DNA from: a virus
Length of the DNA stretch: 41,875 nucleotides
Virus record (IMG/VR): IMGVR_UViG_3300049032_000032
Coordinates: 1 to 41,875 of that record
Strand: one strand, 5' to 3'
Both the position numbers and the translations under genes were made by a program. Below, piece after piece: positions 5,037 through 21,917 of the stretch. The notes under the pieces were generated by a model, which searched no databases, was not told the DNA's origin, and saw nothing but the letters and a program-made list of their open reading frames with translations. How positions within the stretch are numbered: the first letter of the stretch is position 1; every line of letters begins with the position of its first letter.

Positions 5037-5080
5037 ACGATACAGGACAAACTGTGTATCGTCAAGTACCTTTAAGTACC
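5037..5080 (-). promoter_or_regulatory. Leftward promoter with direct-repeat element and inverted repeat
   Basis: On the minus strand, GGTACTT-AAA-GGTACTT (5080-5064) runs into -35 TTGACG (5065-5060), a 17-bp spacer and -10 TATCGT (5042-5037). The spacer and -10 together contain a perfect inverted repeat CGATACA-N10-TGTATCG, a likely operator. The direct-repeat element recurs upstream of other operons in this genome. Confidence 0.65.
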
Positions 5081-5087
5081 TGCCTGC

Positions 5088-5165
5088 CTAAAAGTTAAGC
5101 GGCCCGGCCTTACAGCCAGGGGAATAGTTGGTGCAACCAGTACAGTCGCCGACTGCGCCTCGCAT
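5088..5165 (-). CDS. Possible 25-aa Cys-rich peptide
   Basis: A short frame, ATG at 5165 to TAG at 5088, encodes 25 residues with CTGC and a third Cys in a CxxC-x5-C pattern (DCTGCTNYSPGCKAG). It overlaps the end of the 57-aa gene in another frame and has a purine-rich GAGGAAAGAG upstream. The Cys spacing suggests metal binding. It is too short to be sure it is expressed. Confidence 0.3.
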   Translation of the reverse strand: MRGAVGDCTGCTNYSPGCKAGPLNF

Positions 5166-5283
5166 GCTTTGCTCTTTCCTCAGCTTTGGCAAGGTACTCG
5201 GCGAACACTTTATCGTCTGAAAGGTCAGGCAGCACTGCGGGCTTGGGAAGCTTGTAGGGAACGCCTGGTCGGGAGGCTTTCAC
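5110..5283 (-). CDS. Small basic hypothetical protein
   Basis: A 57-residue protein. It begins MKASRPGVPYKLPKPA, has an acidic DLSDDKVFAEYLAKAEE helix, then a basic ARRSRR stretch and ends in aromatic/hydrophobic WLHQLFPWL. GTG at 5283 overlaps the upstream TGA (GTGA). No family is recognised. It is the last gene of the transcription unit before the promoter and operator at 5037-5080. Confidence 0.65.
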   Translation of the reverse strand: MKASRPGVPYKLPKPAVLPDLSDDKVFAEYLAKAEERAKHARRSRRLYWLHQLFPWL

Positions 5284-5465
5284 GGCTTTTCCTCAACCCA
5301 TTCATCCAGTCGGCGCTCATACAATCGCTGGAAAGTCACCCCCCGCTTCCCGATCAACTCCAAGGTTTCAAAGTCTTCTGGGTCGCTTGTTTCAGCCAGC
5401 ACTTTCCCGTCCGCATCGATGGCCCTCCACCATTTTGTCGGCTTGCAGTAATCCGCATCAGTCAT
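5280..5465 (-). CDS. Small hypothetical protein
   Basis: A 61-residue protein beginning MTDADYCKPTKWWRAIDADG. It then reads as beta-rich (KVLAETSDPEDF) followed by a basic helix (TFQRLYERRLDEWVEEK). The start overlaps the upstream TGA (ATGA) and the stop overlaps the next GTG, so it is internal to a coupled operon. Its function is unknown; the Trp-rich N-terminus resembles small phage proteins that read 'WWRAID.DG..W.ET'. Confidence 0.7.
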   Translation of the reverse strand: MTDADYCKPTKWWRAIDADGKVLAETSDPEDFETLELIGKRGVTFQRLYERRLDEWVEEKP

Positions 5466-5605
5466 GCTGCGTCCAGCCTGTGGATTCTTGCCTGAATAAC
5501 CTCCCAGTCGTCCCCAGCCCTTGCGCACATGGCCTTGGCTGCGGCCTCAATCGCTTGATCAAATAAGTTCATAGCTGGCTCCCCTGCTTCATTGATCACG
5601 TTCAT
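5462..5605 (-). CDS. Small hypothetical protein, diverged ISDEAVEAA-like family
   Basis: A 47-residue protein. ATG at 5605 overlaps the upstream TGA. An internal ATG (MNLFDQAIEAAAKAM) has its own AGGGGAG and may be the true start, giving 36 residues. The core FDQAIEAAAKAMCARAGDDW resembles the N-terminal half of the DEAVEAA small-protein family found three more times in this genome, but lacks the AAAPYIA half. Confidence 0.6.
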   Translation of the reverse strand: MNVINEAGEPAMNLFDQAIEAAAKAMCARAGDDWEVIQARIHRLDAA

Positions 5606-6399
5606 GCTGCTCCGTTGATCGGGTGTTTGTGGCGGCGGGCGGTGATTTGGTCGAGTACGTCGCCGAGCCTGTATGCCGGCGGGATTGGGTTGCCAGCTTC
5701 GTCGTGTTCGGGGTTGGCCCTGGTGATTTTGTCCCGTAAGGCCCATTTGCGGATTTGGTCGGCGGTAACAGTGTGTCCGTACTGCGGCGCACTGAGTTTC
5801 CGTGAGAGGTCGGTTGCGGTGCCGATGTAGTAGTCTTTGGCGGTTGTTGCATGCGCCCGCCATTTGAGGACTTCGTAGGTAGTGCCGCAGGTTCGGCATT
5901 GGGCTTCCTGGTCACCTTTTGCCGCGTAGAGGTCGCTCTGGCATTCGGCGCATTGTCCTGCGAACACGCGGCCCTCGGTGCGGTGGGCGTGGTCTTGTCC
6001 GTGGCGTAGGTGGGTGCGCAGTTCGGGCTCAACCGTGTGTGCCCAGTCTTGCCGGCGGAGTGTGTCGAGGTGGGTGATGAGGTACGCGGCGATACCCTGG
6101 CTGGTGCGTGAGCTTATAGGGCCGGTGATATAAGCTAATTTTAGGCCCGTGCGCATGAGGTACGTGTGGAGTGCGTGTCGTGCGTCGAATACGTGTTCGT
6201 TGATGGGTAGGGGCGCGTGCAACGGGCCCGAGGACGATACCCTCTCTCCATAGCCCGCTGTCAGCGAGGTTCGTGCAACACCCGCGTCCAACACCTCAAC
6301 GACCCCATCAACCTCCGCCAACGCATAAGCCAGGCTCTCACCACAGGTCGTGCAGACGTAGAAGCCGTCCGGCGTTTCAGAACCACACTTGCAAATCAA
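5602..6399 (-). CDS. Zinc-finger/HTH DNA-binding protein
   Basis: A 265-residue protein. The N-terminus has a zinc ribbon (CKCGSE and CTTCGES). A second follows near residues 150-172 (CAECQSD and CRTCGTT). The C-terminal third (YYIGTATDLSRKLS, then TADQIRKWALRDKI, then YRLGDVLDQI) reads as a MerR-like winged helix that pairs a condition with a row-name 'YRLGDV' strand. This points to a sequence-specific regulator. The start is TTG at 6399 with GAGAGGGA at 5-nt spacing. The stop overlaps the next ATG. Confidence 0.75.
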   Translation of the reverse strand: MICKCGSETPDGFYVCTTCGESLAYALAEVDGVVEVLDAGVARTSLTAGYGERVSSSGPLHAPLPINEHVFDARHALHTYLMRTGLKLAYITGPISSRTSQGIAAYLITHLDTLRRQDWAHTVEPELRTHLRHGQDHAHRTEGRVFAGQCAECQSDLYAAKGDQEAQCRTCGTTYEVLKWRAHATTAKDYYIGTATDLSRKLSAPQYGHTVTADQIRKWALRDKITRANPEHDEAGNPIPPAYRLGDVLDQITARRHKHPINGAA

Positions 6400-6418
6400 T
6401 TGCTATCCCTCTCATTCT

Positions 6419-6586
6419 TCATCCGCCGTGTATCTGGCAAGCGGGGTTTGTCGGTCTGGGGTGGCGTGGGTTGTACCGCCACGGTGGACAGGAGCATCCG
6501 GGGTAACGGTTGGTTGGGCGGCTCCATGATGATGCGGCGCCGGTTCCAACGTCGGGGTGGTCGTTCCCTTCGCTGTCTTTCGCCAT
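6419..6586 (-). CDS. Small Pro/Cys-rich hypothetical protein
   Basis: A 55-residue protein. It begins MAKDSEGNDHPDVGTGAASS, then has RYPGCSCPPWRYNPRHPR and ends NPACQIHGG. Three Cys and several His could bind metal. GAAGGAGCC precedes the ATG at 6586. Its TGA overlaps an 8-codon ATG frame that runs into the TTG start of the zinc/HTH gene. Unrecognised. Confidence 0.6.
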   Translation of the reverse strand: MAKDSEGNDHPDVGTGAASSWSRPTNRYPGCSCPPWRYNPRHPRPTNPACQIHGG

Positions 6587-6621
6587 CGGAGGCTCCTTCG
6601 CCTATCGTTTGCTTTCACGGT

Positions 6622-6789
6622 TCATGGGGTGCCTCCTGTGCCGAGGTTCCAGCGGACGTCGGCGCGTTGTTGGGGTGTGAGCTGGTTCCAGGTTTGTTCG
6701 GTGTGTCCTGAGCGGCTGATGATGATCGCCTCGGACGGGGTTAGACGCTCTACGGGGTGCGGGGCCGGCTTACGACGAAACCAGGTCAT
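6622..6789 (-). CDS. Small hypothetical protein
   Basis: A 55-residue protein beginning MTWFRRKPAPHPVERLTPSE. It has an IIISRSGHTEQTW segment and a TPQQRADVRWNLG helix. ATG at 6789 overlaps the upstream TGA. The reading 'LTPQQRADVRWNLG' resembles small actinophage proteins of unknown role. Its stop is followed by a 7-codon frame before the next gene. Confidence 0.65.
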   Translation of the reverse strand: MTWFRRKPAPHPVERLTPSEAIIISRSGHTEQTWNQLTPQQRADVRWNLGTGGTP

Positions 6790-6995
6790 GACAGCTCCTC
6801 ATCGAAGTGCTTAGCGGATCCAAATCGGAGGAAGGCTACTGCGTGGTAGTTCGACGTGGAGTGCCAGTACTCAGCGGCGAGTTCTGCGTCACTGAATCGC
6901 TTCTCCGTTGCGACGAGGCAGTAGGGCGAGTAGAACCCGCCCATCCGGTAAGCATCCGCTTCGGGGTGCTTCTGGTAGATGGTTAGGTGTTCCAT
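6786..6995 (-). CDS. Small hypothetical protein
   Basis: A 69-residue protein rich in aromatic residues (YQKHPEADAYRMGGFYSPY, then EYWHSTSNYHAVAFLRFG). It is predicted as mixed alpha/beta. ATG at 6995 is preceded by CGAGGAAA and lies inside the end of the upstream gene. The stop overlaps the next ATG. No family is recognised. Confidence 0.7.
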   Translation of the reverse strand: MEHLTIYQKHPEADAYRMGGFYSPYCLVATEKRFSDAELAAEYWHSTSNYHAVAFLRFGSAKHFDEELS

Positions 6996-7204
6996 GTTTT
7001 TTCCTCGAGGGCCCGGAGTTTCGCTTGGCATTGTTTGACGATGATGTGGGCTTGTTGGACGTAGGCCCAGTCGCCGTGGTTGGCTACGGCGGCTTGTAAC
7101 GCGGCGGTCCATGCTTCTTCCGCGGCAACGTATGCGTCGAGGGCTTGCTCGCGGTCGAGGATGCCGGCTGCGAGTTCGCGGCCTTCTTCGTGGATCGTGC
7201 TCAT
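6983..7204 (-). CDS. Small helical hypothetical protein
   Basis: A 73-residue, almost entirely helical protein (REQALDAYVAAEEAWTAAL, then YVQQAHIIVKQCQAKLRALEEK). A short coiled coil is likely, so it may act as an oligomeric partner of a replication protein. ATG at 7204 overlaps the upstream TGA, and its 3' end overlaps the next gene by 13 nt. Confidence 0.7.
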   Translation of the reverse strand: MSTIHEEGRELAAGILDREQALDAYVAAEEAWTAALQAAVANHGDWAYVQQAHIIVKQCQAKLRALEEKTWNT

Positions 7205-7338
7205 GCCATTGCTTCCTGGTCCTTGAGGAGCGCCCGGAGCTGGACTTTCAGTTCGCGTACGACTGCGTAGTTCTGTACGTCTTCGTCCAGTGATTCGGCG
7301 AGCTGCAATGCTTCGCGGATGGAGTGGTGGTGTGTCAT
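7201..7338 (-). CDS. Small hypothetical protein, first gene of its unit
   Basis: A 45-residue helical protein that begins with a four-His segment (MTHHHS) and continues IREALQLAESLDEDVQNYA. GGGGGC precedes the ATG. It lies about 35 nt downstream of the TTAGCA/TATTGT promoter and is therefore the first cistron of a coupled run down to 5.1 kb. Function unknown. Confidence 0.65.
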   Translation of the reverse strand: MTHHHSIREALQLAESLDEDVQNYAVVRELKVQLRALLKDQEAMA

Positions 7339-7378
7339 TTTGTTGCCCCCAGTGTTTGGGTCCCGCGCTCAAAACGGG

Positions 7379-7422
7379 ACAATACTCAATTGTACCGCGG
7401 ATGCTAAGTATTTTTAAGTACC
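7379..7422 (-). promoter_or_regulatory. Leftward promoter with direct-repeat element
   Basis: On the minus strand, GGTACTT-AAA-AATACTT (7422-7406) leads into -35 TTAGCA (7407-7402), a 17-bp spacer and -10 TATTGT (7384-7379). The element overlaps the last codons of the RusA gene. It heads the 7.3-5.1 kb operon. Confidence 0.6.
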
Positions 7423-7772
7423 TGCTCGAACAAAAAAAGGATGCCTGGTTCGCCGATTCCACCATGTCTGTGGTCGGGCCCGATGACATGATTCCAGTCA
7501 TCGTCTACCAAAATTCCTGCATCGACGAAGCCATCGATACACGACTTGGTTGTCAAATTTAGGTTGTTCGGGTCGTACCTGCCGCGGCGGGGTTTGTAGA
7601 TGTGCGCCTCGATCCTGACCGGCCCATCGAACGGATCCCAACCAGCGACCGCCACCCTTGCTGCTTCACGCCACGCCTTAACCCGGTTCGCCTTCACCAT
7701 CCTATGCAGCCGCATATTGCTGTTCAGCCAATCGTCAGCCTTCGGAACGAACAGAGACTGTTGGGCGCTCAT
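7404..7772 (-). CDS. rusA: RusA-like Holliday junction resolvase
   Basis: A 122-residue endodeoxyribonuclease of the RusA type. It forms a homodimer that resolves four-way junctions during replication and recombination. The signature is the acidic block after a basic beta-hairpin: PRRGRYDPNNLNLTTKS, then DGFVDAGILVDDDWNHV, supplying the metal-binding aspartates. ATG at 7772 overlaps the upstream TGA and has support from the coupled arrangement. An in-frame extension upstream is not needed. The stop lies inside the next operon's promoter element. Confidence 0.85.
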   Translation of the reverse strand: MSAQQSLFVPKADDWLNSNMRLHRMVKANRVKAWREAARVAVAGWDPFDGPVRIEAHIYKPRRGRYDPNNLNLTTKSCIDGFVDAGILVDDDWNHVIGPDHRHGGIGEPGILFLFEQVLKNT

Positions 7773-7885
7773 GCTTGTTCTGTCCTGTCGTCGTAGTAGG
7801 TAATGGTCTGATGCTCGTGAACACCGCAAGTGGTTTCACCGTCCTCGTTGAACCGGCAGGTGCAGTGGTGAGGATGAGGATTCAT
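7769..7885 (-). CDS. 38-aa Cys/His-rich protein
   Basis: A 38-residue protein, MNPHPHHCTCRFNEDGETTC followed by GVHEHQTITYY. Three Cys and several His in a compact sequence suggest a single zinc site. An AAAGG lies 8 nt before the ATG at 7885. The stop overlaps the RusA ATG. Short proteins of this HHCTC form precede RusA genes in some actinophages. Confidence 0.6.
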   Translation of the reverse strand: MNPHPHHCTCRFNEDGETTCGVHEHQTITYYDDRTEQA

Positions 7886-7986
7886 GCTGTGCGCCTTTCT
7901 GCGGGGCTGGTTTTTGTTGGGTGGGTACTTGGATCACTAAGTGCCTTTAAGTGCCTCAGTGGGCAGCAGGAGGCCGTTGGGGTCAT
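7882..7986 (-). CDS. Possible 34-aa leader peptide overlapping an operator
   Basis: A frame from ATG 7986 to TGA 7882 fits the coupled pattern at both ends (ATGA). It encodes a 34-residue unstructured Thr/Pro-rich peptide, and the direct-repeat element 7939-7955 lies inside it. It may be translated only by coupling, or may be chance. It could equally be treated as intergenic. Confidence 0.3.
   Translation of the reverse strand: MTPTASCCPLRHLKALSDPSTHPTKTSPAERRTA
7939..7955 (-). promoter_or_regulatory. Direct-repeat element (GGCACTT variant)
   Basis: On the minus strand, GGCACTT-AAA-GGCACTT: both half-sites carry the same T-to-C change relative to the consensus GGTACTT, so the repeat symmetry is kept. 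No good -10 follows at 17 bp, so it may be an operator rather than a promoter part. Confidence 0.5.
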
Positions 7987-8399: not shown

Positions 8400-8401
8400 G
8401 G

Positions 8402-9196
8402 TTAGCCTTCAATCTCTAGGAATGGTTGTTCTTGTGCTGCGTTGAACCTGGCGAGCATGTCCGCTTCCTTGGCCCTGGCTCGTGCGCTGTGGTCCATGCG
8501 CTGCGGCTGGATGATGCCGTTACGGGACGGTAGGGGCCCGTCTTCCCAGCAGTCGGCGTTGAGCCATGATGCCGGGAGTTTGGTGAACTGGTCTTCGCGG
8601 TTCGGGTCCGTTGCGTACCGTTCGGCGCCGGCGAGGAGTTCTTCGGCGGTGGCTTTTTTCCTGGCCTTGGCGTAAGCCTTCTCCGCTAGGCCCCTAGAGG
8701 CTTTCCGTGGATAGGCTGTGTACCAGTCGATGAACTCATCGCGTTCTTTAGATATAGAAGCTTTAGCTTCTATATCTGTATCTGTATCTGTATCTGTATC
8801 TGTATCTGCTACAGGTTTGCTAGCCGTTTGCTCTGGCATTTGCTTAGCACTTGCTAGGGTACTTGCTTTAGCTTTGCCACCCTTGGAGCCGGCCATAATC
8901 CGCTTGTTTCTGCGGTTTTCGACCTCTTCAGCGGACTGCTGATGCTCCAAATAGTCGTGCATTTCGTAGCCAAAGTCGGTCGCCTTCACGAAGCCTACTT
9001 GCAGCAACTCTTTTCGGGATTTTGCTGAAAAAAGCTTCAAAAACTGTGCTTTGGTGAGCTTCCCGTCGTTCAGATTCCTCGAGCAGTAGCACCAGGCTTC
9101 GATGAGTTGACGGAACGCTTTGTCGCTCAGCTCGAACGCTTTGGGGTGCTCGGGGAATCCGTTGTGTAGCTTGAAGAACAGTCGGTCGCTGCTCAT
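8402..9196 (-). CDS. Replication initiation / replisome organiser protein
   Basis: A 264-residue protein. An N-terminal winged-helix domain (ELSDKAFRQLIEAWCYCSRN, then GYEMHDYLEHQQS) is joined by a low-complexity linker with five Asp-Thr pairs. The C-terminal domain carries the FIDWYTAYPRK, KAYAKARKKA and KLPASWLNADCWED signatures of phage primosome or initiator proteins. It probably binds the phage origin and recruits helicase with the 138-aa neighbour. ATG at 9196 follows GAGGAGGG; an upstream in-frame extension overlaps the zinc-repeat gene and was rejected. Confidence 0.75.
   Translation of the reverse strand: MSSDRLFFKLHNGFPEHPKAFELSDKAFRQLIEAWCYCSRNLNDGKLTKAQFLKLFSAKSRKELLQVGFVKATDFGYEMHDYLEHQQSAEEVENRRNKRIMAGSKGGKAKASTLASAKQMPEQTASKPVADTDTDTDTDTDIEAKASISKERDEFIDWYTAYPRKASRGLAEKAYAKARKKATAEELLAGAERYATDPNREDQFTKLPASWLNADCWEDGPLPSRNGIIQPQRMDHSARARAKEADMLARFNAAQEQPFLEIEG
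8773..8808. repeat. Six perfect TATCTG hexamer repeats
   Basis: Six uninterrupted TATCTG units encode the Asp-Thr repeat in the linker of the replication protein. Because the unit is 6 bp, slippage changes linker length by two residues without shifting frame. Confidence 0.95.
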
Positions 9197-9206
9197 GGCA
9201 CCCTCC

Positions 9207-10634: not shown

Positions 10635-10666
10635 CGTTTACTCCTGTGGTGGTGGTTTGGGGTGGC

Positions 10667-10693: not shown

Positions 10694-10696
10694 ACC

Positions 10697-10738
10697 GGTA
10701 CTTCAGGGTACTTCATTCGGTGGGTATTTTTAAGTACC
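10697..10738. promoter_or_regulatory. Two inverted direct-repeat elements
   Basis: Plus strand GGTACTT-CAG-GGTACTT at 10697-10713 faces minus strand GGTACTT-AAA-AATACCC at 10738-10722. This is the only place where two copies of the element face each other. I see no good -10 for either orientation. Confidence 0.55.
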
Positions 10739-12208: not shown

Positions 12209-12355
12209 TTAGGACTCGCTTTCTTTGATGTATGCCTCGAGGGCTTTGCGGATGATGTCGGATAGGTTGTCGCCCCGTACAGCGGCGACCTCCTGGGCTT
12301 TCTCCCAAAGCTCCTCGTCTATGCGGACACTACGGCGGGTTGTTCCTTGGCTCAT
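12209..12355 (-). CDS. Ribbon-helix-helix regulator (lytic-strand copy)
   Basis: A 48-residue RHH/CopG-type protein: TTRRSVRIDEELWEKAQ forms the N-terminal strand and helix A, then GDNLSDIIRKALEAYIKES forms helix B. RHH proteins bind DNA as dimers through the paired strand. It closely resembles the 51-aa RHH protein on the plus strand at 18795-18950 (shared RRS-R core, KAQEVA/QAQEVA and GDNLSD.IR.AL). ATG at 12355 overlaps the upstream TGA. A candidate ligand is the palindrome in the twin promoters. Confidence 0.8.
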   Translation of the reverse strand: MSQGTTRRSVRIDEELWEKAQEVAAVRGDNLSDIIRKALEAYIKESES

Positions 12356-13039: not shown

Positions 13040-13106
13040 AGTCTAGGTGTCTTGACACCATCTGTCTACTTAAAAGTACCCAATCTACAAAGTATTTTTA
13101 AGTACC
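13040..13106 (-). promoter_or_regulatory. Leftward twin promoter with palindromic operator in the spacer
   Basis: On the minus strand the order is GGTACTT-AAA-AATACTT (13106-13090), then GGGTACTTTTAAGTA overlapping -35 TAGACA (13068-13063), a 17-bp spacer containing GGTGTCAAGACACC (13059-13046), and -10 TAGACT (13045-13040). The whole block aligns base for base with the rightward promoter at 18363-18429. The palindrome would let a dimeric repressor block both hexamers. Confidence 0.75.
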
Positions 13107-14634: not shown

Positions 14635-14684
14635 GGGGTTACTCCTTGCTCATGGGGGTAATACTCAAAGATACTGCACGCGCC

Positions 14685-14701
14685 GGGTAGTTCTAAGTAC
14701 C
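14685..14701 (-). promoter_or_regulatory. Degenerate direct-repeat element
   Basis: On the minus strand, GGTACTT-AGA-ACTACCC: the first half-site is perfect and the second is degenerate. Possible -10s (TATCTT or TATTAC) lie downstream, but spacing to a -35 is poor. Confidence 0.45.
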
Positions 14702-15151: not shown

Positions 15152-15306
15152 GCTCCCTGCTCCTTCATGCTCGCTTCGATAGCTTCGTTCCAAACATCCA
15201 CGGTGATGCGCTCGCCCAACTCGAGAGTCGCCTTGAGATAGCCGAGCATGTGGAACGGATTAACATCCGCTTCCGCCGGGCTTGCGACCTTTATGCGTTC
15301 GTTCAT
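15148..15306 (-). CDS. Small hypothetical protein
   Basis: A 52-residue protein (MNERIKVASPAEADVNPFHM, then YLKATLELGERITVDVWNEA). Helical with a beta start. ATG at 15306 overlaps the excisionase-like TGA and its own TGA overlaps the next ATG. Function unknown; a partner of the excisionase-like protein is possible from position. Confidence 0.65.
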   Translation of the reverse strand: MNERIKVASPAEADVNPFHMLGYLKATLELGERITVDVWNEAIEASMKEQGA

Positions 15307-15533
15307 TGCTTGTTCCTCCGTGCTGCTCGTGTGCCGACTCTTGGTGTGCGGCGGGGTTCAGGCGGGGCCTGCTGATACTTCGCCCGGATAGCCTCAATGT
15401 CCTCCGACGAGAACCGAAGCTCAGTACCGAAACGATGACAGGGCCACAGGTCTTGCTTCTTCAACCGGTAAGCAGTCGAACGGCTAATGCCGAACAACTC
15501 CGCAACCTCACCGATAGTCTTCAACGGCTCCAT
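15303..15533 (-). CDS. Excisionase-like / MerR-type HTH protein
   Basis: A 76-residue protein with a single winged helix: TIGEVAELFGISRSTAYRLK, then QDLWPCHRFGTELRFSSEDI, then a basic Arg/Pro tail. This layout (HTH, short wing with FGTELRFS, E-x2-I) is that of phage excisionases and small MerR-like regulators. With an integrase in the genome, control of excision is plausible, although the gene is in the early lytic operon and 4.7 kb from int. The ATG at 15533 lies 2 nt after the upstream TAG. Confidence 0.7.
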   Translation of the reverse strand: MEPLKTIGEVAELFGISRSTAYRLKKQDLWPCHRFGTELRFSSEDIEAIRAKYQQAPPEPRRTPRVGTRAARRNKQ

Positions 15534-15535
15534 GA

Positions 15536-16021
15536 CTAGGCCGCGCGGGCAGTTAGTTCGCTGATGTAGATCTTCAGTTCGGGGCCATTGTTGAACCACT
15601 CGCCGGCGACTCGTAGGTGAGCGAACTGTCGGTGCAGTTCCTGTTCCCGTCGCTGGCCTCCTGGTTCAGTCGCGAGCAGTTTGGCGTTCGACGGGTCGAG
15701 GCCTTTAGGCATCTGGACGGACCCGCTACGGATACTTTTGACCCGAAGCTCTGGATCGAGTGACTGGCCGATTTTGATTCGGCGTCCTGCCTTGACGAAG
15801 TAGACAAGTGCAGCGTCGCGGCGGTCCTGAGCTTCTACGACCTTCGAGTCGATGTACTTAGACATTGCGTTCCGGAGTCCTCTGTCCTCTGCGGCGCGGA
15901 TGTTCCGCTGGAAGGTATCCAAGTGGGACTTGCAGAGAGGGATGATGTCCAGCGCCATTTTCTTGGACTGGCGTCCGCATCGAACGGTGCCGTAGCGGTA
16001 TGCGCCGCACTGCTCGCTCAT
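15536..16021 (-). CDS. GIY-YIG superfamily nuclease-like protein (T5orf172/Mug113 type)
   Basis: A 161-residue protein. An N-terminal segment has CGAYRYGTVRCG and PLCKSH, possibly metal-binding. The C-terminal domain reads LVYFVKAGRRIKIGQS, then LLATEPGGQRREQELHRQFA, then VAGEWFNNGPE, the hallmark of the T5orf172 branch of GIY-YIG nucleases (YFV, IKIG, E..LH..F, GEWF). ATG at 16021 overlaps the Cro-like TGA. An upstream extension would cover the Cro-like gene and was rejected. Possible roles are recombination or host DNA attack. Confidence 0.75.
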   Translation of the reverse strand: MSEQCGAYRYGTVRCGRQSKKMALDIIPLCKSHLDTFQRNIRAAEDRGLRNAMSKYIDSKVVEAQDRRDAALVYFVKAGRRIKIGQSLDPELRVKSIRSGSVQMPKGLDPSNAKLLATEPGGQRREQELHRQFAHLRVAGEWFNNGPELKIYISELTARAA

Positions 16022-16305
16022 GCCGCGACCTTGATTCGTGAGTGGGGGTTGCGGACCATGCGTGCGTGGGCGGGGTCTGTGACGAGGATGAGGGTTTCGA
16101 CTTCGTAGGTGATGTCTTCGGATGAGATGCCGAGGCCGATGCAGATGAGGTGCAGTGCGTCTTCGGTCGGCTGGCGTTCGCCGGTCTCGATTCGCTGCAA
16201 GTGGGAGGGGGAGATACCTGCTTGCAGGGCGAGTGCGTCCTGGGTGATTCCTTTGGCTTTGCGGATGACCCTGATGGCCTTTCCGACTACTTTTCGTTCG
16301 TTCAT
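16018..16305 (-). CDS. Cro-like XRE-family regulator (leaderless)
   Basis: A 95-residue protein. After a short basic N-terminus comes an XRE HTH: GKAIRVIRKAKGITQDALA, then LQAGISPSHLQRIETGERQ, then TEDALHLICIGLGI. A C-terminal segment (DPAHARMVRNPHSRIKVAA) has no clear domain. It is divergent from the repressor gene, the classic cro position. The ATG at 16305 lies 7 nt after a -10 (CATACT), has no SD, and so is probably translated from a leaderless mRNA. An in-frame extension to 16557 through the operator region was rejected. Confidence 0.8.
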   Translation of the reverse strand: MNERKVVGKAIRVIRKAKGITQDALALQAGISPSHLQRIETGERQPTEDALHLICIGLGISSEDITYEVETLILVTDPAHARMVRNPHSRIKVAA

Positions 16306-16653
16306 AGGAACCAGTATGCAGACATGCGCAGGAATGCGCAAGTCCACGCACGCACTTTCCGGAAGGAACGCGCAAGTACCAGAAATCCGCGCCAACACTG
16401 GGAAGCAGGGGTGAATTACAAGGGGTGCATGCCGGGAACGTGCGCGAAAATTGCCACAAAAGAATTTTGGACTTGCGCGGTTTCGCCGTGGGACGCTTTC
16501 ACCCAGACGCAGTAAGAGGAAACAACTGGAACCAGCCGGAACCAAGTAGCGACTCACGAAAAAACTGCGTACACATACGCAGAACTAGGTAGTTACACAG
16601 CCGGACTCAGCCGGCCCACTACCTATAGACAGATACGCAGTTGGGGGAAGAAA
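16306..16653. promoter_or_regulatory. Immunity intergenic region between cro-like and repressor genes
   Basis: This 348-bp stretch carries no gene. Besides the cro promoter it holds a perfect operator palindrome CTGCGTA-CACA-TACGCAG (16565-16582), a further TACGCAG half-site (16634-16640) just upstream of the repressor start, an ACGCAG half-site at 16507, and TAGGTAGT/ACTACCTA (inverted, about 16586-16624) around two CAGCCGG copies. A TATAGA at 16624-16629 is a possible -10 for the repressor, without a good -35. Confidence 0.6.
16313..16341 (-). promoter_or_regulatory. Early leftward (cro) promoter with repeated ATGCGCA operators
   Basis: On the minus strand, -35 TTGCGC (16341-16336), 17-bp spacer, -10 CATACT (16318-16313); the expected transcript start coincides with the ATG at 16305. 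Two ATGCGCA heptamers on the plus strand at 16324 and 16334 are exactly 10 bp apart and cover the spacer and -35, making them likely repressor sites. Confidence 0.65.
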
Positions 16654-17325
16654 GTGGAAGCTATGAGCAACATCTCGGCAGAAGACATCAGGAATGGAAG
16701 GGAGCGGAAAATGATGACCCAGCAGGAACTAGCGGATGAGGTTGGTGTTTCGCTCCGCACGGTCAGCTCTTGGGAGCGCGGCGAGACGGTGCCCCGGAAT
16801 CGGTTAGGTGTCATAGCTGAAGTCCTCGGGCTTGAGGGCGCTAGGGAGTTCGGTCGCGAGGCTCTACTTCGCCAGCTCGGACGCCTTGCTAAGCAGCGGA
16901 GGGAAGAAATTGGCTTGGGGAGGCCTGCGTTCGCTAAGGAAGCGGGTCTAGGGTCAGACAAGACCGTGGCCTCCTTCGAATTTGGGCGGGTACTTCCCTC
17001 TGGCGTCTCTCAAAGGAAGATCGAGAAGGCCCTTGGTTGGAGGCTCGGCATTATTGACGAGTGCATGAGGATGGTTGACCGCAAAGCTTCCACGATTGAC
17101 ATGACCGAACTCGACGCGGAAGACAGCCTCTACATCCAGTCCCAGGGTGGCATCTCTTCGCTGGCCCTTGTCTCTGATGATGACCTGCTCGCGGAGGTGC
17201 GCCGGCGGATGACTTCGCGCACGGGCCGGAACTTGTCTAGGGAGGCGCAGGATATCTATGGGCTGGCGGCTTCGACTAACGCTGAGCACATCGAGGACGA
17301 GGACCACGACGATACCGCGGAGTAG
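16654..17325 (+). CDS. Immunity repressor with two tandem HTH domains
   Basis: A 223-residue protein. The first XRE domain (residues about 10-60) reads MMTQQELADEVGVSLRTVSS then WERGETVPRNRLGVIAEVLG. A second HTH-like region (75-135) reads LAKQRREEIGLGRPAFAKEA, GSDKTVASFEFGR and RKIEKALGW. The C-terminus is acidic (EHIEDEDHDDTAE) and lacks a LexA-type protease domain. This suits a CI-like repressor that is inactivated by a partner protease rather than by self-cleavage. Start is GTG at 16654 after GGGGGAAG, or ATG at 16663. The ImmA-like gene follows. Confidence 0.85.
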   Translation: MEAMSNISAEDIRNGRERKMMTQQELADEVGVSLRTVSSWERGETVPRNRLGVIAEVLGLEGAREFGREALLRQLGRLAKQRREEIGLGRPAFAKEAGLGSDKTVASFEFGRVLPSGVSQRKIEKALGWRLGIIDECMRMVDRKASTIDMTELDAEDSLYIQSQGGISSLALVSDDDLLAEVRRRMTSRTGRNLSREAQDIYGLAASTNAEHIEDEDHDDTAE

Positions 17326-17462: not shown

Positions 17463-17870
17463 TTGGTTTTGTTCGTGTATAGGGTGCGTATGACTGATGG
17501 TGTGGCAGCTCGTACGGATGGGGTGGATATTTGGATTGATGACAGGCTGAACGAGGTTCAGGAGAAGTGCGCGATAGTCCATGAGGAAATCCATATCGAG
17601 CGCGGCCACAGCACGGTTCAACCCGAGGCGGTGGAGATGGGCGTCAGGTATGAGGCAGCGCGTCGGCTGCTACCGGACTCCGGCATCGGTTCGTGCAGCG
17701 GGTCTACGTTGGCTCAGGTGGCTCGTAACTTGGGTGTGACGCGCCAGGTTTTGATGGATCGGGCCGCGACGTTGACGGACGAGGAAACAGAGCGTGCCGG
17801 CTGCCTATCCTGCCGACTCTGCCCGATCATCGACGCTAGGTACCCAGCGAAACAGTACGCCAACGCTTAG
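17463..17870 (+). CDS. ImmA/IrrE-family metallopeptidase
   Basis: Up to 135 residues. It contains the zinc protease motif VHEEIHIERGH (HExxH near residues 39-43), with YEAARRLLPDSGI downstream and a Cys pair near the C-terminus (CLSCRLC). In ICEBs1-like and many actinophage immunity systems such a protease cleaves the adjacent repressor to trigger induction. The start is uncertain: TTG at 17463 or 17469, or ATG at 17490. The 137-bp gap after the repressor has no clear gene. A strong terminator follows the stop. Confidence 0.8.
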   Translation: MVLFVYRVRMTDGVAARTDGVDIWIDDRLNEVQEKCAIVHEEIHIERGHSTVQPEAVEMGVRYEAARRLLPDSGIGSCSGSTLAQVARNLGVTRQVLMDRAATLTDEETERAGCLSCRLCPIIDARYPAKQYANA

Positions 17871-17882
17871 TCTGCACCTTTT

Positions 17883-17907
17883 AGCCCCCGTTAGCGCGGG
17901 GGCTTTC
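17883..17907 (+). terminator. Intrinsic terminator after the ImmA-like gene
   Basis: AGCCCCC-GTTAGCGC-GGGGGCT followed by TTC. The same core (CCCGTTAGCGCGGGGGCTTT) recurs at 18328-18352, where it lies inside an open reading frame. Confidence 0.85.
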
Positions 17908-17919
17908 TGGTGGGCTGGT

Positions 17920-17963
17920 GGTACGCGGAAGTACTTACGCCGTTGAGTCTTTCGGGGTATCGT
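17920..17963 (+). promoter_or_regulatory. Rightward promoter with direct-repeat element; leaderless start
   Basis: GGTACGC-GGA-AGTACTT (17920-17936) leads into -35 TTACGC (17935-17940), a 17-bp spacer and -10 TATCGT (17958-17963). The ATG of the next gene is 6 nt further, where transcription should start. Confidence 0.65.
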
Positions 17964-17969
17964 TGGGGT

Positions 17970-18173: not shown

Positions 18174-18382
18174 ACGATATGACATGGTACTTGGTCGGCG
18201 CCGGGCTGTGGATCTTCGCCACTGGCTTCAATCACGCCCTGTATCGGAGTAAGTGGACGGCGCGTGCTTTCTTCGCGTTCCCTGTCTGGCCTGTTGCGCT
18301 AGTCGTGTTCGCGGGCATGGGGCTCGTGCCCCCGTTAGCGCGGGGGCTTTTTGGTGGGGGGGGGTGCTTAAAGAAACTTTGA
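18170..18382 (+). CDS. Small membrane protein whose frame runs through a terminator
   Basis: A 70-residue frame from GTG 18170, with the SD in the junction repeat. Residues about 5-22 (TWYLVGAGLWIFATGF) and 36-58 (FPVWPVALVVFAGMGLV) are probable membrane helices. From residue about 53 the frame reads through the terminator at 18328-18352, and its stop (18380-18382) lies inside the next promoter's direct-repeat element. If termination is efficient, the mRNA has no stop codon. The last 17 codons may therefore be an accident of a truncated gene. Confidence 0.6.
   Translation: MNDMTWYLVGAGLWIFATGFNHALYRSKWTARAFFAFPVWPVALVVFAGMGLVPPLARGLFGGGGCLKKL
18328..18352 (+). terminator. Intrinsic terminator (second copy of the 17.9 kb hairpin)
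   Basis: GCCCCC-GTTAGCGC-GGGGGC followed by TTTTT. The core is identical to the terminator after the ImmA-like gene but here has a better U-tract. It lies inside the 3' end of the membrane-protein frame. Confidence 0.85.
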
Positions 18383-18429
18383 TGATTGGGTGCTTTTGGG
18401 TAGACAAGCGGTGTCAAGACACCTAGACT
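18363..18429 (+). promoter_or_regulatory. Rightward twin promoter with palindromic operator in the spacer
   Basis: GGTGCTT-AAA-GAAACTT (18363-18379), then GGGTGCTTTTGGGTA overlapping -35 TAGACA (18401-18406), a 17-bp spacer with GGTGTCAAGACACC (18410-18423), and -10 TAGACT (18424-18429). It is the counterpart of the leftward promoter at 13040-13106. Confidence 0.75.
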
Positions 18430-18469
18430 AGATACATAAGCAAGGAACACCAACCAAGGAGAGATTCAA

Positions 18470-18652: not shown

Positions 18653-18798
18653 ACAACCGGGCGGAGGCCCTCGCAATCGCGAGGGCCGCTGTTCCCTACT
18701 ACCAGGAACAGTATGAAGCTAAACCGAACTGGTATACGGAGTCACGGCTAGCCTTAGCGCAACGAGCGGTAGAAGTGCTGGAAGGGGAGCCCGCATGA
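18649..18798 (+). CDS. 49-aa helical protein
   Basis: A 49-residue protein beginning MNNRAEALAIARAAVPYYQE and ending RLALAQRAVEVLEGEPA. Two helices are joined by a Trp/Tyr-containing linker. Both ends overlap neighbours by ATGA, so it lies inside a coupled operon between the beta-rich protein and the RHH regulator. Its AEALAIARAAVPYY resembles helices in small actinophage proteins of unknown role. Confidence 0.65.
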   Translation: MNNRAEALAIARAAVPYYQEQYEAKPNWYTESRLALAQRAVEVLEGEPA

Positions 18799-18950
18799 GT
18801 AAGGGAACTATCCGCCGCAGCATCCGGGTTGGCGAGCTATGGGACCAAGCGCAGGAAGTCGCCAACCAGAACGGCGACAACCTATCCGACGTAATCCGGC
18901 AAGCACTTGCACAATACGTGCGAGACAAGCAGGAAGGCCCCCCAGAATGA
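18795..18950 (+). CDS. Ribbon-helix-helix regulator (lysogeny-strand copy)
   Basis: A 51-residue RHH protein: TIRRSIRVGELWDQAQEVA, then GDNLSDVIRQALAQYVRDKQ. It is a paralogue of the 48-aa protein at 12209-12355. Both operons carry the same promoter palindrome, so one or both RHH proteins are good candidates to bind it. ATG at 18795 and TGA at 18948-18950 both overlap neighbours. Confidence 0.8.
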   Translation: MSKGTIRRSIRVGELWDQAQEVANQNGDNLSDVIRQALAQYVRDKQEGPPE

Positions 18951-19195
18951 TCAGTGACGAAGCAGTAGAAGCAGCGGCGCGTGCTCAGTTCGAGAAATGG
19001 CACCCCGAAAAGAAATGGGACGATAGGCCTGACATTCAGAGGATCTTCCGGCGAGATGCGCTGGTCTCCCTTGAGGCGGCGGCACCGTACATCGCCGCTC
19101 AGGTTTGGGACGAGGCAGCCGCCAGCATCATCGACGAACACGGCAACCCCATCCAACCAACCAACATCAACAACCCGTATAGGAGCCAGGCATGA
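18947..19195 (+). CDS. ISDEAVEAA-family small protein (lysogeny-strand copy)
   Basis: An 82-residue protein (MISDEAVEAAARAQFEKWHP, then SLEAAAPYIAAQVWDEA, ending NNPYRSQA). ATG at 18947 overlaps the RHH stop; a longer in-frame reading from 18839 would cover the RHH gene. The linker between the two conserved halves is 19 residues longer than in the 17970 copy. The 3' end is the second junction repeat. Confidence 0.75.
   Translation: MISDEAVEAAARAQFEKWHPEKKWDDRPDIQRIFRRDALVSLEAAAPYIAAQVWDEAAASIIDEHGNPIQPTNINNPYRSQA
19172..19195 (+). repeat. Junction repeat copy 2
   Basis: AACCCGTATAGGAGCCAGGC followed by ATGA; the only copy giving an ATG start to the next gene. Confidence 0.9.
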
Positions 19196-19341
19196 GCGCT
19201 GTAGCGAAGTGCAACGAGCCGATGCGGACCCAGAACGGCAACACGTACAAATGCACCAAGCCGTTAGGGCATAGGGGCCAGCACGTAGACAGCCGCCACC
19301 CAATCAGACGATGGACCAACCCGTATAGGAGCCAGGCGTGA
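19192..19341 (+). CDS. 49-aa Cys/His protein
   Basis: A 49-residue protein (MSAVAKCNEPMRTQNGNTYK, then CTKPLGHRGQHVDSRHP, ending NPYRSQA). The C-N-E-P...Y-x-C-x3-LGHxGxH pattern fits a compact zinc knuckle seen in small phage proteins. Start and stop both fall in junction repeats, so it looks like a cassette inserted between two identical boundaries. Confidence 0.65.
   Translation: MSAVAKCNEPMRTQNGNTYKCTKPLGHRGQHVDSRHPIRRWTNPYRSQA
19318..19341 (+). repeat. Junction repeat copy 3
   Basis: AACCCGTATAGGAGCCAGGC followed by GTGA, giving the GTG start of the 87-aa gene. Confidence 0.9.
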
Positions 19342-19601
19342 ATGAGATAAGGCGGCAGTGCAAGGACATCCTGGATGGCCCATTGCTTGGACTCATCGCC
19401 CGCAAGCAGCGCGAGAAGGGCATGTGGGTAAACACGTGGGACTTCGAGCCGCCATACTCCGAACTGCCTGACAATCTGTTCCGAGCCAAGATGGGACAAC
19501 TCATGAAGCGCGGGCTGATCGACGGGTGCAACTGCGGATGCCGAGGCGACTACGAGTTGACCGACAAGGGCAGAGAGTTCCTAGCTAACGCGACGGCCTA
19601 A
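19338..19601 (+). CDS. Winged-helix-like small protein
   Basis: An 87-residue protein (MNEIRRQCKDILDGPLLGLI, then PDNLFRAKMGQLMKRGLIDG, then CNCGCRGDYELTDKGREFL). The LxxRGLI-C-x-CGCRGDYELTxKGxEF core is a winged helix with a wing strand of the 'y.LT.kG' type and a CxCxC turn. It resembles small DNA-binding proteins of actinophages. GTG start from junction repeat 3. A terminator follows the stop. Confidence 0.7.
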   Translation: MNEIRRQCKDILDGPLLGLIARKQREKGMWVNTWDFEPPYSELPDNLFRAKMGQLMKRGLIDGCNCGCRGDYELTDKGREFLANATA

Positions 19602-19605
19602 TGAA

Positions 19606-19636
19606 GGCCCTTCACCTGTCCGGGTGGGGGCTTTTT
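19606..19636 (+). terminator. Intrinsic terminator
   Basis: GCCC-TT-CACC-TGTCC-GGTG-GG-GGC followed by TTTTT, directly after the 87-aa gene. Confidence 0.75.
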
Positions 19637-19683
19637 GGTGGGTGCGACCATACGTAGTCGCCTCGGGCTATGGACTCTTCACC

Positions 19684-19707
19684 AACCCGTATAGGAGCCA
19701 GGCGTGA
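19684..19707 (+). repeat. Junction repeat copy 4
   Basis: AACCCGTATAGGAGCCAGGC followed by GTGA. The upstream frame that would end in NPYRSQA is only 21 codons (GTG 19642), starting inside the tail of the preceding terminator, so the repeat here seems to have been acquired together with its gene. Confidence 0.9.
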
Positions 19708-19901
19708 GGATCTACCAGCCCGTTGATGGCCCTGACCGTCTGCCGCAAGCGATGATCGAGGGCTCGACGGAATACGACTGGGCTGAACTGCCTGAGTACC
19801 TGAAGGAAATCATGCGCCAAGCCGCAAGAGATTTCACGAGATGGGCCGAGACGGAAGCGAAGCCGATCCAAGGGGAACTCGCCAACGAACTGAACGAGTA
19901 G
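19704..19901 (+). CDS. Small acidic hypothetical protein
   Basis: A 65-residue protein (MRIYQPVDGPDRLPQAMIEG, then TEYDWAELPEYLKEIMRQAA). Mostly helical, with an acidic C-terminal half. GTG at 19704 and its SD come from junction repeat 4. A terminator follows at 19911. No family recognised. Confidence 0.65.
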   Translation: MRIYQPVDGPDRLPQAMIEGSTEYDWAELPEYLKEIMRQAARDFTRWAETEAKPIQGELANELNE

Positions 19902-19910
19902 CGACAGCAT

Positions 19911-19937
19911 GGCCCTCACCTTCGGGTGGGGGCCTTT
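19911..19937 (+). terminator. Intrinsic terminator ending the lysogeny operon
   Basis: GGCCC-T-CACC-TTC-GGGTG-GGGGCC followed by TTTT, 10 nt after the stop at 19901. Confidence 0.8.
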
Positions 19938-20245
19938 TGCGTGGGGGGTGACTGTTGGTTAATCTTGTGAGTTTGGTGAGGCTTTCACCGTTGTCGAGGT
20001 GTTGGCGGCGACAACGGATCCCGATAAACGTAGACAATCGTACGCATTCGTATGGACTCTAAACCCTTGATTTCTAGGGGTTTTCCGCTTGTTCTCAAGG
20101 GTGCGTAAGGAATTCGAATCTCCCTTAACTCCACTAGAATAAAGGGATCTAAGCCCGAATGTTGTCGTAGGTAGGGTTTCGGTTGGCGGCGATTCATGGG
20201 ATGATTGAAGTGAAGCAATACTTTCAATCTCCGTGAGGGACAAAT
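19938..20245. other. Candidate attP region upstream of the integrase
   Basis: This 308-bp stretch has no gene. It contains AATTCGAATCTCCC (around 20111-20124), which resembles the T-loop and 3' half of a tRNA or tmRNA gene, followed by TTAACTCCA. Such sequence is a typical attachment core for a tyrosine integrase. Nearby is an inverted pair CCCTTGA/TCAAGGG (about 20065-20101) that could be an arm-type site. The exact core needs the host junction. Confidence 0.4.
20203..20229 (+). promoter_or_regulatory. Inverted repeat in the integrase leader
   Basis: GATTGAA-(13 nt)-TTCAATC just upstream of the integrase SD (GAGGGA). It overlaps a possible -10 (CAATAC, with TTCATG 17 bp upstream), so it could be an operator or an mRNA hairpin controlling integrase expression. 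Confidence 0.5.
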
Positions 20246-21415
20246 ATGGCCTCCATCCGTACCCGCCAACGTAAAGATGGCAGTGAGTACTACACCATCA
20301 CGTGGCGGGAGGATGGTCAGCAGCGGGCGCACTCGTTCGACACGATGCGCGAAGCCGAAACCTGGAAGCGGCTACTCGACGCTAACGGCCAGTCGATGAC
20401 GAAAGCCGTTGACATGTACGAGGCCAGTGAGCACGAGGGCCCGACCGTTGCCGAGGCCATGACGGACCACATCGACCAGCTCGTCGGGACCACGCCGTAC
20501 ACCATCAAGCGTTACCGCAGCGCCGTGCGACTTCACTTCTCCGGGCCCCTCGGTAGAATGAAGATCAAAGCCGTCACCCATGACCACATCATCGAGTGGA
20601 TCAAATGGATGCAGGACCGGGACAAGGGTGCCAAGACGATAGCCCTACAGCACGGTCTACTCTCCGCAACAATGGAGACGGCAGAGCGTAAGGGGATCAT
20701 CGAGAAGAACCCTTGCAGGGGCGTGAGGCTCCCTAAGAAGGCCCGTGTCGGCGCGGATGGGGACGACATTGACCTTGATGACTTCCGCGCCATACGTGAC
20801 CGTACAGAGCCGCACTTCCAGCCCTTCCTAGACTTCCTTGTTGGCACTGGTTGCCGGTTCAGTGAAGCCACGCCGCTACTGGCGTCCGACTTCGCACTGG
20901 AAGCTAACCCGCCGATGGTGTTCATCACGAAGGCGCACAAACTTGGCGGCGATGAGGATCCTGCCCGGTATGTGGGAGAACCAAAGTCAAGGAAGTCGCG
21001 CCGGCGGGTGTCGCTAGCCCCGTCCACAGTCGCGTCCATCCGCCCATTGGTGGAGCAAGCCGCGCAGGATGGCGGGCCCGTGTTCCGAATGAAGGAAGGC
21101 GGAGTCTTTACCAGTCAGTCGTTTTACAATCACAGCTGGGAGCGGGCCAGGCGTGAGGCGGGGCTCGGCATCGGATCCTCCAAGCACGTCACGGTCCACT
21201 CGATTAGACATCTCCATGCGGCGATCATGCTCCACGCAGGCATGAGCCTCTATGAGTTGTCCACGCGCCTCGGGCACACGTCGATTCAGATCACCGCGGA
21301 CCTTTATGCCAGCCTTGTGCCGGACGCCCACTTTAGGGGCGCCCAGCACGCGGCAAAAGCTCTAGGCGGCGTCTCGTTCGGTGATACGGGGATGGAACTC
21401 GACGAGGTCGGCTAG
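20246..21415 (+). CDS. int: Tyrosine recombinase integrase
   Basis: A 389-residue integrase. The N-terminus (MASIRTRQRKDGSEYYTITW) is an arm-binding AP2-like strand domain. A SAM-like core-binding domain spans about 65-165. The catalytic domain has Arg204 in GTGCRFSEA, a Lys near 247-249, HSIRHLHA (His318, Arg321), LGHTS (His344) and the nucleophile Tyr354 in ADLYASL. All RKHRH(Y) residues are visible. It recombines attP with a host attB. The GAGGGA SD precedes the ATG. The 3' end overlaps the convergent HNH gene by 54 bp. Confidence 0.95.
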   Translation: MASIRTRQRKDGSEYYTITWREDGQQRAHSFDTMREAETWKRLLDANGQSMTKAVDMYEASEHEGPTVAEAMTDHIDQLVGTTPYTIKRYRSAVRLHFSGPLGRMKIKAVTHDHIIEWIKWMQDRDKGAKTIALQHGLLSATMETAERKGIIEKNPCRGVRLPKKARVGADGDDIDLDDFRAIRDRTEPHFQPFLDFLVGTGCRFSEATPLLASDFALEANPPMVFITKAHKLGGDEDPARYVGEPKSRKSRRRVSLAPSTVASIRPLVEQAAQDGGPVFRMKEGGVFTSQSFYNHSWERARREAGLGIGSSKHVTVHSIRHLHAAIMLHAGMSLYELSTRLGHTSIQITADLYASLVPDAHFRGAQHAAKALGGVSFGDTGMELDEVG

Positions 21416-21796
21416 CTGCTCCCGTTCCTTCTTACGCGCCCGCAGGATGGATGCCCGGTCTGCGTTGGCTCGCTTACAGAGATCGCACCGGCACTTGTAA
21501 ACCTTCGACGTGTACCTCGAGATGGTCCCATGCTCCGGCTTCGGTCGCTGAGCTAAGGTCTTCTCGAGGTGATGCGCCTTGCAAAGCACCTGGCACTTAG
21601 CCAACTCGGCATCACGGCGGGGGATAGCCCATGACCAAATCCGGTGGGCTACCTTCTGCGTGGGGTCGATGTGGTCAACTTCAAGTTCCTGTGTGGTACC
21701 GCATACGACGCACGATTTGTCGGCCATCCATTCGGCGCGACGCGCGGCGACCCATTCCCTTTTGTATTTGGCCATGTCTGATGTAGCGTTGGTCAT
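21362..21796 (-). CDS. HNH endonuclease with HGT..CRC..C module
   Basis: A 144-residue protein. Residues about 29-80 form the HNH domain (KSCVVCGTTQELEVDHIDPT, then KCQVLCKAHHLEKTLA). It is followed by PEHGTISRYTSKVYKCRCDL then C, the zinc module also found in the 177-aa protein at 9955-10488. AGGAGCCC precedes the ATG. It converges on and overlaps the integrase gene, so expression of one may interfere with the other. Likely a free-standing homing-type nuclease. Confidence 0.8.
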   Translation of the reverse strand: MTNATSDMAKYKREWVAARRAEWMADKSCVVCGTTQELEVDHIDPTQKVAHRIWSWAIPRRDAELAKCQVLCKAHHLEKTLAQRPKPEHGTISRYTSKVYKCRCDLCKRANADRASILRARKKEREQLADLVEFHPRITERDAA

Positions 21797-21872
21797 GTCG
21801 GGCTCCTAGAGAGAGTTCGTCCATAAGCCTCGGGCGCTTGCAGGCGCCGCGAGGTTTGTTTAACCTACCTAC

Positions 21873-21917
21873 AGTACTCGAAAGTACTTAGTTTGTCTCA
21901 GTACTTTTGGGTATGAC
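21873..21917 (+). promoter_or_regulatory. Direct-repeat element and putative rightward promoter
   Basis: AGTACTC-GAA-AGTACTT (21873-21889) followed by TTAGTT as -35, an 18-bp spacer and TATGAC as -10. A second GTACTTTTGGGTA block (21901-21913) matches the inner element of the twin promoters. Transcription would head towards the terminator at 21972. Confidence 0.5.

Follow-up and report, generated by a model that had tools for sequence, protein, structure and literature searches.

Which protein reads a set of direct repeats scattered over a phage genome, and what would it do there? The stretch analysed here, called the window, is the complete IMG/VR virus record IMGVR_UViG_3300049032_000032 (41,875 bases). 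Its genes include those for portal, head, tail, and terminase proteins, a replication/recombination block on the minus strand, and an immunity region with a cro-like gene, a repressor with two helix-turn-helix (HTH) domains, an ImmA-like protease, and a tyrosine integrase. It is a temperate, siphophage-like phage whose hosts are soil bacteria, and in the phage collection it is most closely matched by short stretches of Arthrobacter phage genomes. A preliminary description of the window had listed ten intergenic sites of an element, RGTACTT-N3-RGTACTT, in which two head-to-tail half-sites lie 10 bp apart, and had taken them for a phage-wide regulon of one regulator. I found that the element is conserved in related phages, that it keeps a preferred register to the -10 hexamer, and that its sequence class switches together with a small protein, HTH17. 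The elements are very probably the cis-acting parts of a phage-wide promoter regulon, and on balance I take HTH17 to be the protein that would read them. HTH17 is a 76-amino-acid winged-HTH protein of the HTH_17/excisionase family, encoded by the third gene of the cro-first operon (15306-15533, minus strand).

Element Sites and Their Chance Level

A direct-repeat-like element is present at all ten listed sites, but the exact pattern was found at only two of them (5064 and 10697). One mismatch is seen at 7406, 13090, and 21873, two at 7939 and 17920, and three at 10722, 14685, and 18363; at 10722 and 14685 one half is good and the second half reads TACCC. The sites 10697 and 10722 form one compound site. 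About nine promoters carry the element. When up to three mismatches were allowed, there were 33 matches in the window, several sites entering this count on both strands, against 3.4 +/- 1.6 in 100 shuffles; at up to two mismatches, the window has 11 and the reversed pattern none. Eleven elements, all from relatives and none from the window, were used to build a scoring matrix, which gave 12 window hits at a score of >=12, against a mean of 0.3 (maximum 2) in 20 random sequences that kept the dinucleotide make-up of the window, and the ten listed sites scored from 11.7 to 30.3. According to a hand-made gene list, 12 of the 15 matrix hits at a score of >=10 lie outside genes, the non-coding share of the window being 9.7%. 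The other three (7406, 18363, and 29587) are inside genes; 7406 and 18363 overlap the ends of open reading frames (ORFs), and the hit at 29587 lies within coding sequence and its worth is unclear. In the shuffle, random-sequence, and gene-list comparisons alike, the motif is not as frequent in shuffled sequence or within genes.

Two Element Classes in Related Phages

Is the element found in other phages? A scan of viral contigs by the window-type motif (class A) returned 21 stretches, among which L019 and L026 encode relatives of several early proteins, while L022 and L034 were matched by HNH-type ORFs only. A second class A scan returned nine stretches, the contigs of L019 and L035 among them. 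Class A consists of the window, L036 (the same contig as L019), L035, L132, and L026. GTACTT elements were not found in L009 and L010, whose repressor is 50% identical to that of the window. These two phages, and also L135, have a class B element, TCACTG-N4-TCACTG, again with a 10-bp period. The two classes have a common geometry and a different sequence.

A scan by the TCACTG-N4-TCACTG pattern alone returned 30 stretches. Of the distinct records behind them, 18 were tested whole, the rest being short or low-GC loci or contigs already included. Seven of the 18 records have at least two class B sites, and a class B HTH17 is encoded in five of these seven, the other two being fragments of 4 kb and 11 kb; among the single-site records, HTH17 was found in 0 of 11. 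The TCACTG half-site has 43 matches in seven class B loci, against a mean of 0.8 (maximum 7) for 40 permuted half-sites. The reversed-pattern control is not independent for this half-site: in the seven loci, each of its 26 hits falls on a real site, displaced by about one base. The conservation that the preliminary description had called for is thus seen in relatives that were found by motif alone and have the same early genes.

The two classes meet at orthologous promoters. The counterparts of the 5064 promoter in L166, L184, L185, L186, and L187 carry TCACTG repeats instead, and have in common with it the sequence TGTCCTGTA, before or within the -10 hexamer; L186 also matches the window promoter over much of the sequence past TGTCCTGTA. 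At the promoter behind rusA, the core is kept and the element is swapped, in eight phages. An element just downstream of an ssb-like gene is found in the window and in 10 of the 10 relatives checked, of class A (L035, L036, L132, and L026) and class B (L009, L010, L135, L145, L184, and L186). The recurrence in relatives, the swapped element at orthologous promoters, and the -10 register described below bear out a phage-wide regulon of one regulator.

Promoter Geometry

For the register, 21 class A and 49 class B elements were aligned at the first base of the 16-mer, a -10 matrix was scored at each offset, and near-duplicates were removed, which left 16 class A and 26 class B distinct elements. 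Counted from the first base of the repeats, the best two offsets are positions 28 and 38, in each class separately. With the maximum taken over 69 offsets, the position-28 mean was reached by 0 of 2000 shuffles in class A and class B alike, and the position-38 mean in 6 (class A) and 11 (class B) of 2000. A score above 3 at position 28 is found in 7/16 class A and 5/26 class B elements, the mean for other offsets being 0.3 and 0.5; at position 28 or 38, such a hexamer is found in 10/16 and 8/26.

In the register with the -10 at position 28 and a 17-bp spacer, the -35 hexamer occupies positions 5-10, between the repeats. Thus, the -35 has a repeat on either side, as it does in lambda pRE, and the comparison with CII that had been made for these sites fits geometrically, the preferred register being equal to the lambda pRE spacing. 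The five class B elements with a good position-28 hexamer all have, at the -35 place, one of the six bases of TTGACA, which would suit activator-dependent promoters. An alternative arrangement, in which the second half-site abuts or overlaps the -35 and the -10 follows at 17 bp, had been proposed for several sites; it fits 5064 and 17920. At 7406, 13090, and 14685, a -10 one turn closer scores higher, so that the repeats straddle the -35.

Two features weigh against the register. No hexamer above 3 was found at either position in 6/16 class A and 18/26 class B elements; therefore, many elements, of class B above all, are without a recognisable -10. In addition, an inverted half-site often follows 8-9 bp past the element (in class B, an inverted CAGTGA follows 8 or 9 bp after it in 12/26), and the class A -10 peaks coincide with the inverted half-sites because GTAC is its own inverse. 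The clean case for the register rests on class B.

HTH17 as the Proposed Reader

HTH17 matches PF12728 (35.7 bits, cut-off 27, E=1e-8), TIGR01764 (29.3 bits, cut-off 28.8), and phrog_66, 'excisionase and transcriptional regulator' (E=1e-8); 11 and 9 of the 12 family members match the first two, respectively, at E<=0.01. Its AlphaFold model (pLDDT 78, pTM 0.55) resembles RacA, BldC, Pukovnik Xis, and RdfS with Z of 5.8-7.5, a level that may mean a common fold only; the fold neighbours are 6ama and 6amk (BldC) and 4j2n and 8dgl (Xis/RdfS type). When the 43 ORF families present in both classes (sense and antisense, unfiltered) were compared, the widest sense-strand split by element class was that of HTH17, with 66-85% and 75-97% within the classes and 32-38% between them. 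In its recognition-helix segment, 10-12 of 12 residues are identical within class A, 6-12 within class B, and only 1-4 between the classes. The element class tracks best with HTH17 and less well with the two-HTH repressor.

How might such a protein work? I infer binding, stoichiometry, and activation as follows. About nine promoters would be under one phage protein, with the elements as their upstream or -35-spanning parts. HTH17 would be expressed from the cro-first operon, and its copies would bind the 10-bp direct repeats along one helix face; the direct repeats are consistent with cooperative head-to-tail binding. At some promoters, where the -10 starts at position 28, the repeats would span a poor -35 in the manner of lambda CII; at others, where it starts at position 38, they would be set upstream by one more turn of the helix. 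Commonly, a third, inverted half-site would lie 8-9 bp on. Bound HTH17 would aid RNA polymerase, and the replication and other operons would be switched on after expression of the cro operon. If HTH17 does read the elements, it is likely to be an activator. The whole statement, that HTH17 binds the repeats and activates early and middle promoters, seems to me evenly poised. These gradings, like that of the regulon itself, are judgements.

Several results speak against this role of HTH17. Linked genes co-vary with it because the classes are two lineages, the repressor and ImmA among them: ImmA splits too (74-86% and 76-94% within, 51-60% between), as does the cro-like family of L035, L036, and class B, from which the window cro is absent (61% and 47-100% within, 30-36% between). 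Since several genes of this linked module split, the determinant is to be placed within it, and linkage by itself does not discriminate between HTH17 and the repressor; the recognition helices, as far as sequences can tell, favour HTH17. In L185, the HTH17 helix is changed (6-7/12 to other class B), and the elements are still of class B. The chromosomal HTH17 relatives L224 and L225, examined as 20-kb loci with no other homologue of the compared phage proteins, have a recognition helix near that of class A (ISRSTAFRMKK), and no class A array was found within about 10 kb (at score >=12, 0 hits in L225 and 1 in L224). L229, L233, L235, and L239 encode HTH17 homologues and early phage genes, L229 also relatives of the repressor and ImmA; their period-10 families are not above random in a weak test, one that also misses the L036 elements. 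HTH17 relatives alone do not predict elements. Homologues without arrays indicate that the regulon may be a trait of one lineage, or that other classes are too degenerate for the scan. Furthermore, a search of PDB sequences with the HTH17 profile had no hit at E<=0.01, and Foldseek with the HTH17 model gave no match at E<=0.001. Element-like matches also occur near cro or the repressor: one lies in the repressor-cro region of L035 at 8216 (the cro end), with a weak one at 8530 before the repressor; L145, L184, and L186 each have a match with one mismatch within the first codons of cro, and L135 has matches with two mismatches.

Other Readers and Other Roles

The candidate immunity repressor of the window (16654-17325, plus strand) has XRE-type HTH domains, with PF01381 in one stretch and PF13560 in two. 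Its second HTH was the first model of the reader, as in four phages it appeared to go with the element class, a pattern that was broken by L135 and its kin. The L135-type second recognition helix is 8-10/12 identical to class A and 5-6/12 to class B L009 and L010; thus, the second helix of the repressor does not follow the element class. The first HTH was rejected since L009 and L010 share that of the window yet have the other element, while L035 and L036 differ in it and have the same element. The repressors of L135, L184, L185, and L186 are without the N-terminal HTH domain found in the window, L009, L010, L035, and L036, an instance, to judge by sequence, of an immunity repressor that has naturally lost or gained a DNA-binding domain. 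The cro-like XRE protein (16021-16305, minus strand) was also set aside as the reader because it changes within class A, L035 and L036 having a different cro-like protein.

Could the elements nevertheless be operators or stoperator-like sites of the two-HTH repressor, which would silence the promoters in the lysogen? The repressor has two HTH stretches, its identity splits by class, if by a small margin (53-89% and 52-97% within the classes, 37-50% between them), the repeats extend over -35 places, and L035 has its element at the cro end of the repressor-cro region. A precedent is the two-domain mycobacteriophage repressor that reads many asymmetric sites, as PMC9283540 describes. I nonetheless consider this explanation unlikely: the L135-type repressors have class B elements without the first HTH, the second recognition helix does not follow the class, and the repressor-cro regions of the window, L009, and L010 hold repeats of other kinds and have no element apart from one three-mismatch match in the window. 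The operator-like repeats of this region, moreover, differ within one element class (L035 vs L036, by eye). Chance or repeat drift without function is extremely improbable. Several sites are degenerate, as it would have them, but the shuffle and matrix excess, the conservation, the register, the swapped orthologous promoters, and the ssb-linked position all contradict it.

Given that HTH17 reads the elements, would it mainly repress or time the promoters, or be a DNA-bending excision factor with many extra sites? I hold this to be quite unlikely, although the half-sites cover the -35 place in the position-28 register, the protein scores as an excisionase, and RdfS, a recombination directionality factor (RDF) related to it, forms a head-to-tail oligomer and alters promoter activity, raising one promoter and lowering another, as described in PMC11963761. 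In L009 (11335-11375) and L135 (6927-6967), two direct and two inverted half-sites precede the integrase gene by about 200 bp, as an excision factor would suggest; no window hit of score >=6 lies near the integrase start. The class B position-28 promoters, with their poor match to TTGACA, would have little basal activity to repress. An unrelated phage or host factor is an improbable reader. Small host-like HTH_17 proteins do occur in the same host family (L236-L238), and BldC binds head-to-tail on 9-bp direct repeats (as described in PMC5859096), but the specificity of a host factor would not change with phage lineage. As for another phage factor, none of the sense-strand ORF families was restricted to class A when presence in >=3 class A loci was required, and the cro-like protein differs within class A. 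HTH17, as an activator, remains my preferred reader.

Searches beyond these phages gave little. The A4 profile was positive in 1/394 host genomes in a class and 56/395 in a family, and a new period-10 array was not found in flanked loci from 18 of these 56 genomes. A scan of genome contigs gave generic HTH matches only (80 loci kept), and plasmids gave no match to the repressor. In the phage collection, repressor matches were partial only, at <60% identity (24 records), while class A HTH17 had four weak Bacillus matches and class B HTH17 none. None of the few literature titles examined concerned such an element.

Individual Sites and Neighbouring Features

The element at 5064-5080 (minus strand), GGTACTTAAAGGTACTT, belongs to a promoter TTGACG-17-TATCGT whose -10 is at 5042-5037 (position 38). 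The same arrangement is seen at 17920-17936 (plus strand), where GGTACGCGGAAGTACTT precedes TTACGC-17-TATCGT with the -10 at 17958-17963 (position 38). The element at 7406-7422 (minus strand), GGTACTTAAAAATACTT, lies in the 3' end and last codons of a RusA-like ORF; its -10 is TACAAT at 7394-7389 (position 28), with a second, TATTGT, ten bases further, and it has an inverted partner at 7381-7397 (plus strand). Inverted partners were also found for the minus-strand elements at 13090-13106 (region 13064-13106; partner 13065-13081, plus strand; -10 TACTTT at 13078-13073) and 14685-14701 (partner 14660-14676, plus strand; -10 TATCTT at 14673-14668), and for the plus-strand element AGTACTCGAAAGTACTT at 21873 (partner 21899-21915, minus strand; region 21873-21915), which lies upstream of a lipoprotein-like ORF. 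A convincing -10 is absent at this last site and at 7939-7955 (minus strand), where GGCACTTAAAGGCACTT has the same change in both halves. In the compound element at 10697-10738, downstream of the ssb-like gene, 10697-10713 (plus strand) faces 10722-10738 (minus strand) across 8 bp. The element GGTGCTTAAAGAAACTT at 18363-18379 (plus strand) is at the end of a 70-amino-acid ORF and resembles the 13090 promoter. These similar promoters on opposite strands, at 13090-13025 (minus) and 18363-18440 (plus), are each followed by a 14-bp palindrome, GGTGTCAAGACACC, which is perhaps a further operator, for an RHH or cro-like protein. Two small Arc/RHH-type proteins of a common PHROG family are encoded on opposite strands, at 12209-12355 (minus) and 18795-18950 (plus).

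The repressor-cro intergenic region of the window (16306-16653) has its sole element match, with three mismatches, at 16364-16380, and has GCGCAAGT/ACTTGCGC repeats instead. LexA-box-like sequences of the TTCGAACAT type were noticed by eye in this region of L035, L036, L185, and L186, not in that of the window; they suggest that SOS control differs between these phages. The ImmA/IrrE-like metalloprotease (17463-17870, plus strand; phrog_87) adjoins the repressor, and the tyrosine integrase (phrog_1, E=1e-54) is encoded at 20246-21415 (plus strand). By eye, terminator-like hairpins lie between the plus-strand small-gene operons at 17881-17912, 18327-18355, and 19905-19944; the last region is the sole stretch resembling Arthrobacter phage Hum25. 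TATCTG/CTGTAT units form a short tandem repeat at 8770-8810, within a replication-initiator-like ORF.

Other sequences were noted in the relatives. The sequence TTGTTGACGCCGTCAACA, shared by L135 and L009, adjoins their four-half-site compounds. TTCCGC-N4-TTCCGC was considered as a third element class in the Arthrobacter phages Seahorse and Tiff81, which have two and zero exact sites, respectively. It was kept apart from this system, as a similar repeat, exact or degenerate, stands between the repressor and cro in several class B relatives (L184, L185, L186, L009, and L010). In Seahorse and Tiff81, the TTCCGC repeats adjoin a tRNA-end-like sequence, a possible attP; coordinates are L127:9325-9340, L127:6170-6185, L129:6239-6254, and L130:5350-5365. 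Is this repeat read by a host factor, or is it an integrase arm site?

Comparison with Known Systems

Promoters of the lambda pRE type resemble the elements in having a 4-base core that is directly repeated, with a 10-bp spacing, around the -35, and the -10 at position 28. Aligned at the pRE repeats, lambda (L190) has GTTTGT at positions 5-10 and AAGTAT at 28-33, which I take to be the pRE -35 and -10; AAGTAT is not among the best four lambda hexamers by the -10 matrix used here. The core is TTGC in lambda pRE, whereas here it is GTAC or TCAC, at about nine sites that belong mostly to lytic early operons. The second register and the inverted half-sites also set the present promoters apart from those of CII, as does the position of the sites, no window hit of score >=6 lying directly upstream of the repressor or integrase gene, unlike the CII lysogeny promoters. 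The proposed reader is an HTH_17 winged-HTH protein and apparently not a CII homologue; phrog_4836, 'CII-like', was matched by the repressor and the cro-like protein only, of ten proteins compared, amid many generic HTH families.

BldC, of the HTH_17, MerR-like family, is like HTH17 a small protein, and its direct repeats are read head-to-tail, as noted above from PMC5859096. The present system differs in its 10-bp period, its 6-base half-site, and its phage-encoded protein, the proposed activator of a phage regulon. HTH_17-type excisionases and RDFs (Pukovnik Xis, RdfS, TIGR01764) share the family match and fold neighbours with HTH17, and RdfS likewise acts on promoters; they have one att-site cluster, in contrast to the phage-wide promoter array seen here. 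The stoperators of Cluster A phages (TipsytheTRex/L5) are also many sites in a temperate actinophage genome, with a repressor of two DNA-binding domains, again as described in PMC9283540. These sites are asymmetric, 13 bp in length, and stop transcription elongation, whereas the sites here are direct repeats in a preferred -10 register, and the repressor helices do not track them.

Meaning for Temperate Actinophages

Early gene control of temperate actinophages is poorly known beyond a few model phages. My broader and tentative proposal, which I would hold at slightly below even, is that in a family of temperate actinophages an excisionase/BldC-type protein became a global early/middle activator via promoters of CII geometry, and that the regulon specificity switched at least once (GGTACTT/TCACTG, in either direction) together with the protein, while promoter positions and geometry were kept. 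If true, CII-like promoter geometry arose with a DNA-binding protein of another, unrelated type, and a family that is mostly annotated 'excise' in phages can act as a global regulator. At orthologous promoters, the two classes amount to a specificity swap made by nature, in which recognition-helix residues may be matched to half-site bases. Such regulons could then be found in other temperate actinophages by a computable rule, which asks for repeats of period 10 followed by a -10 at position 28 or 38.

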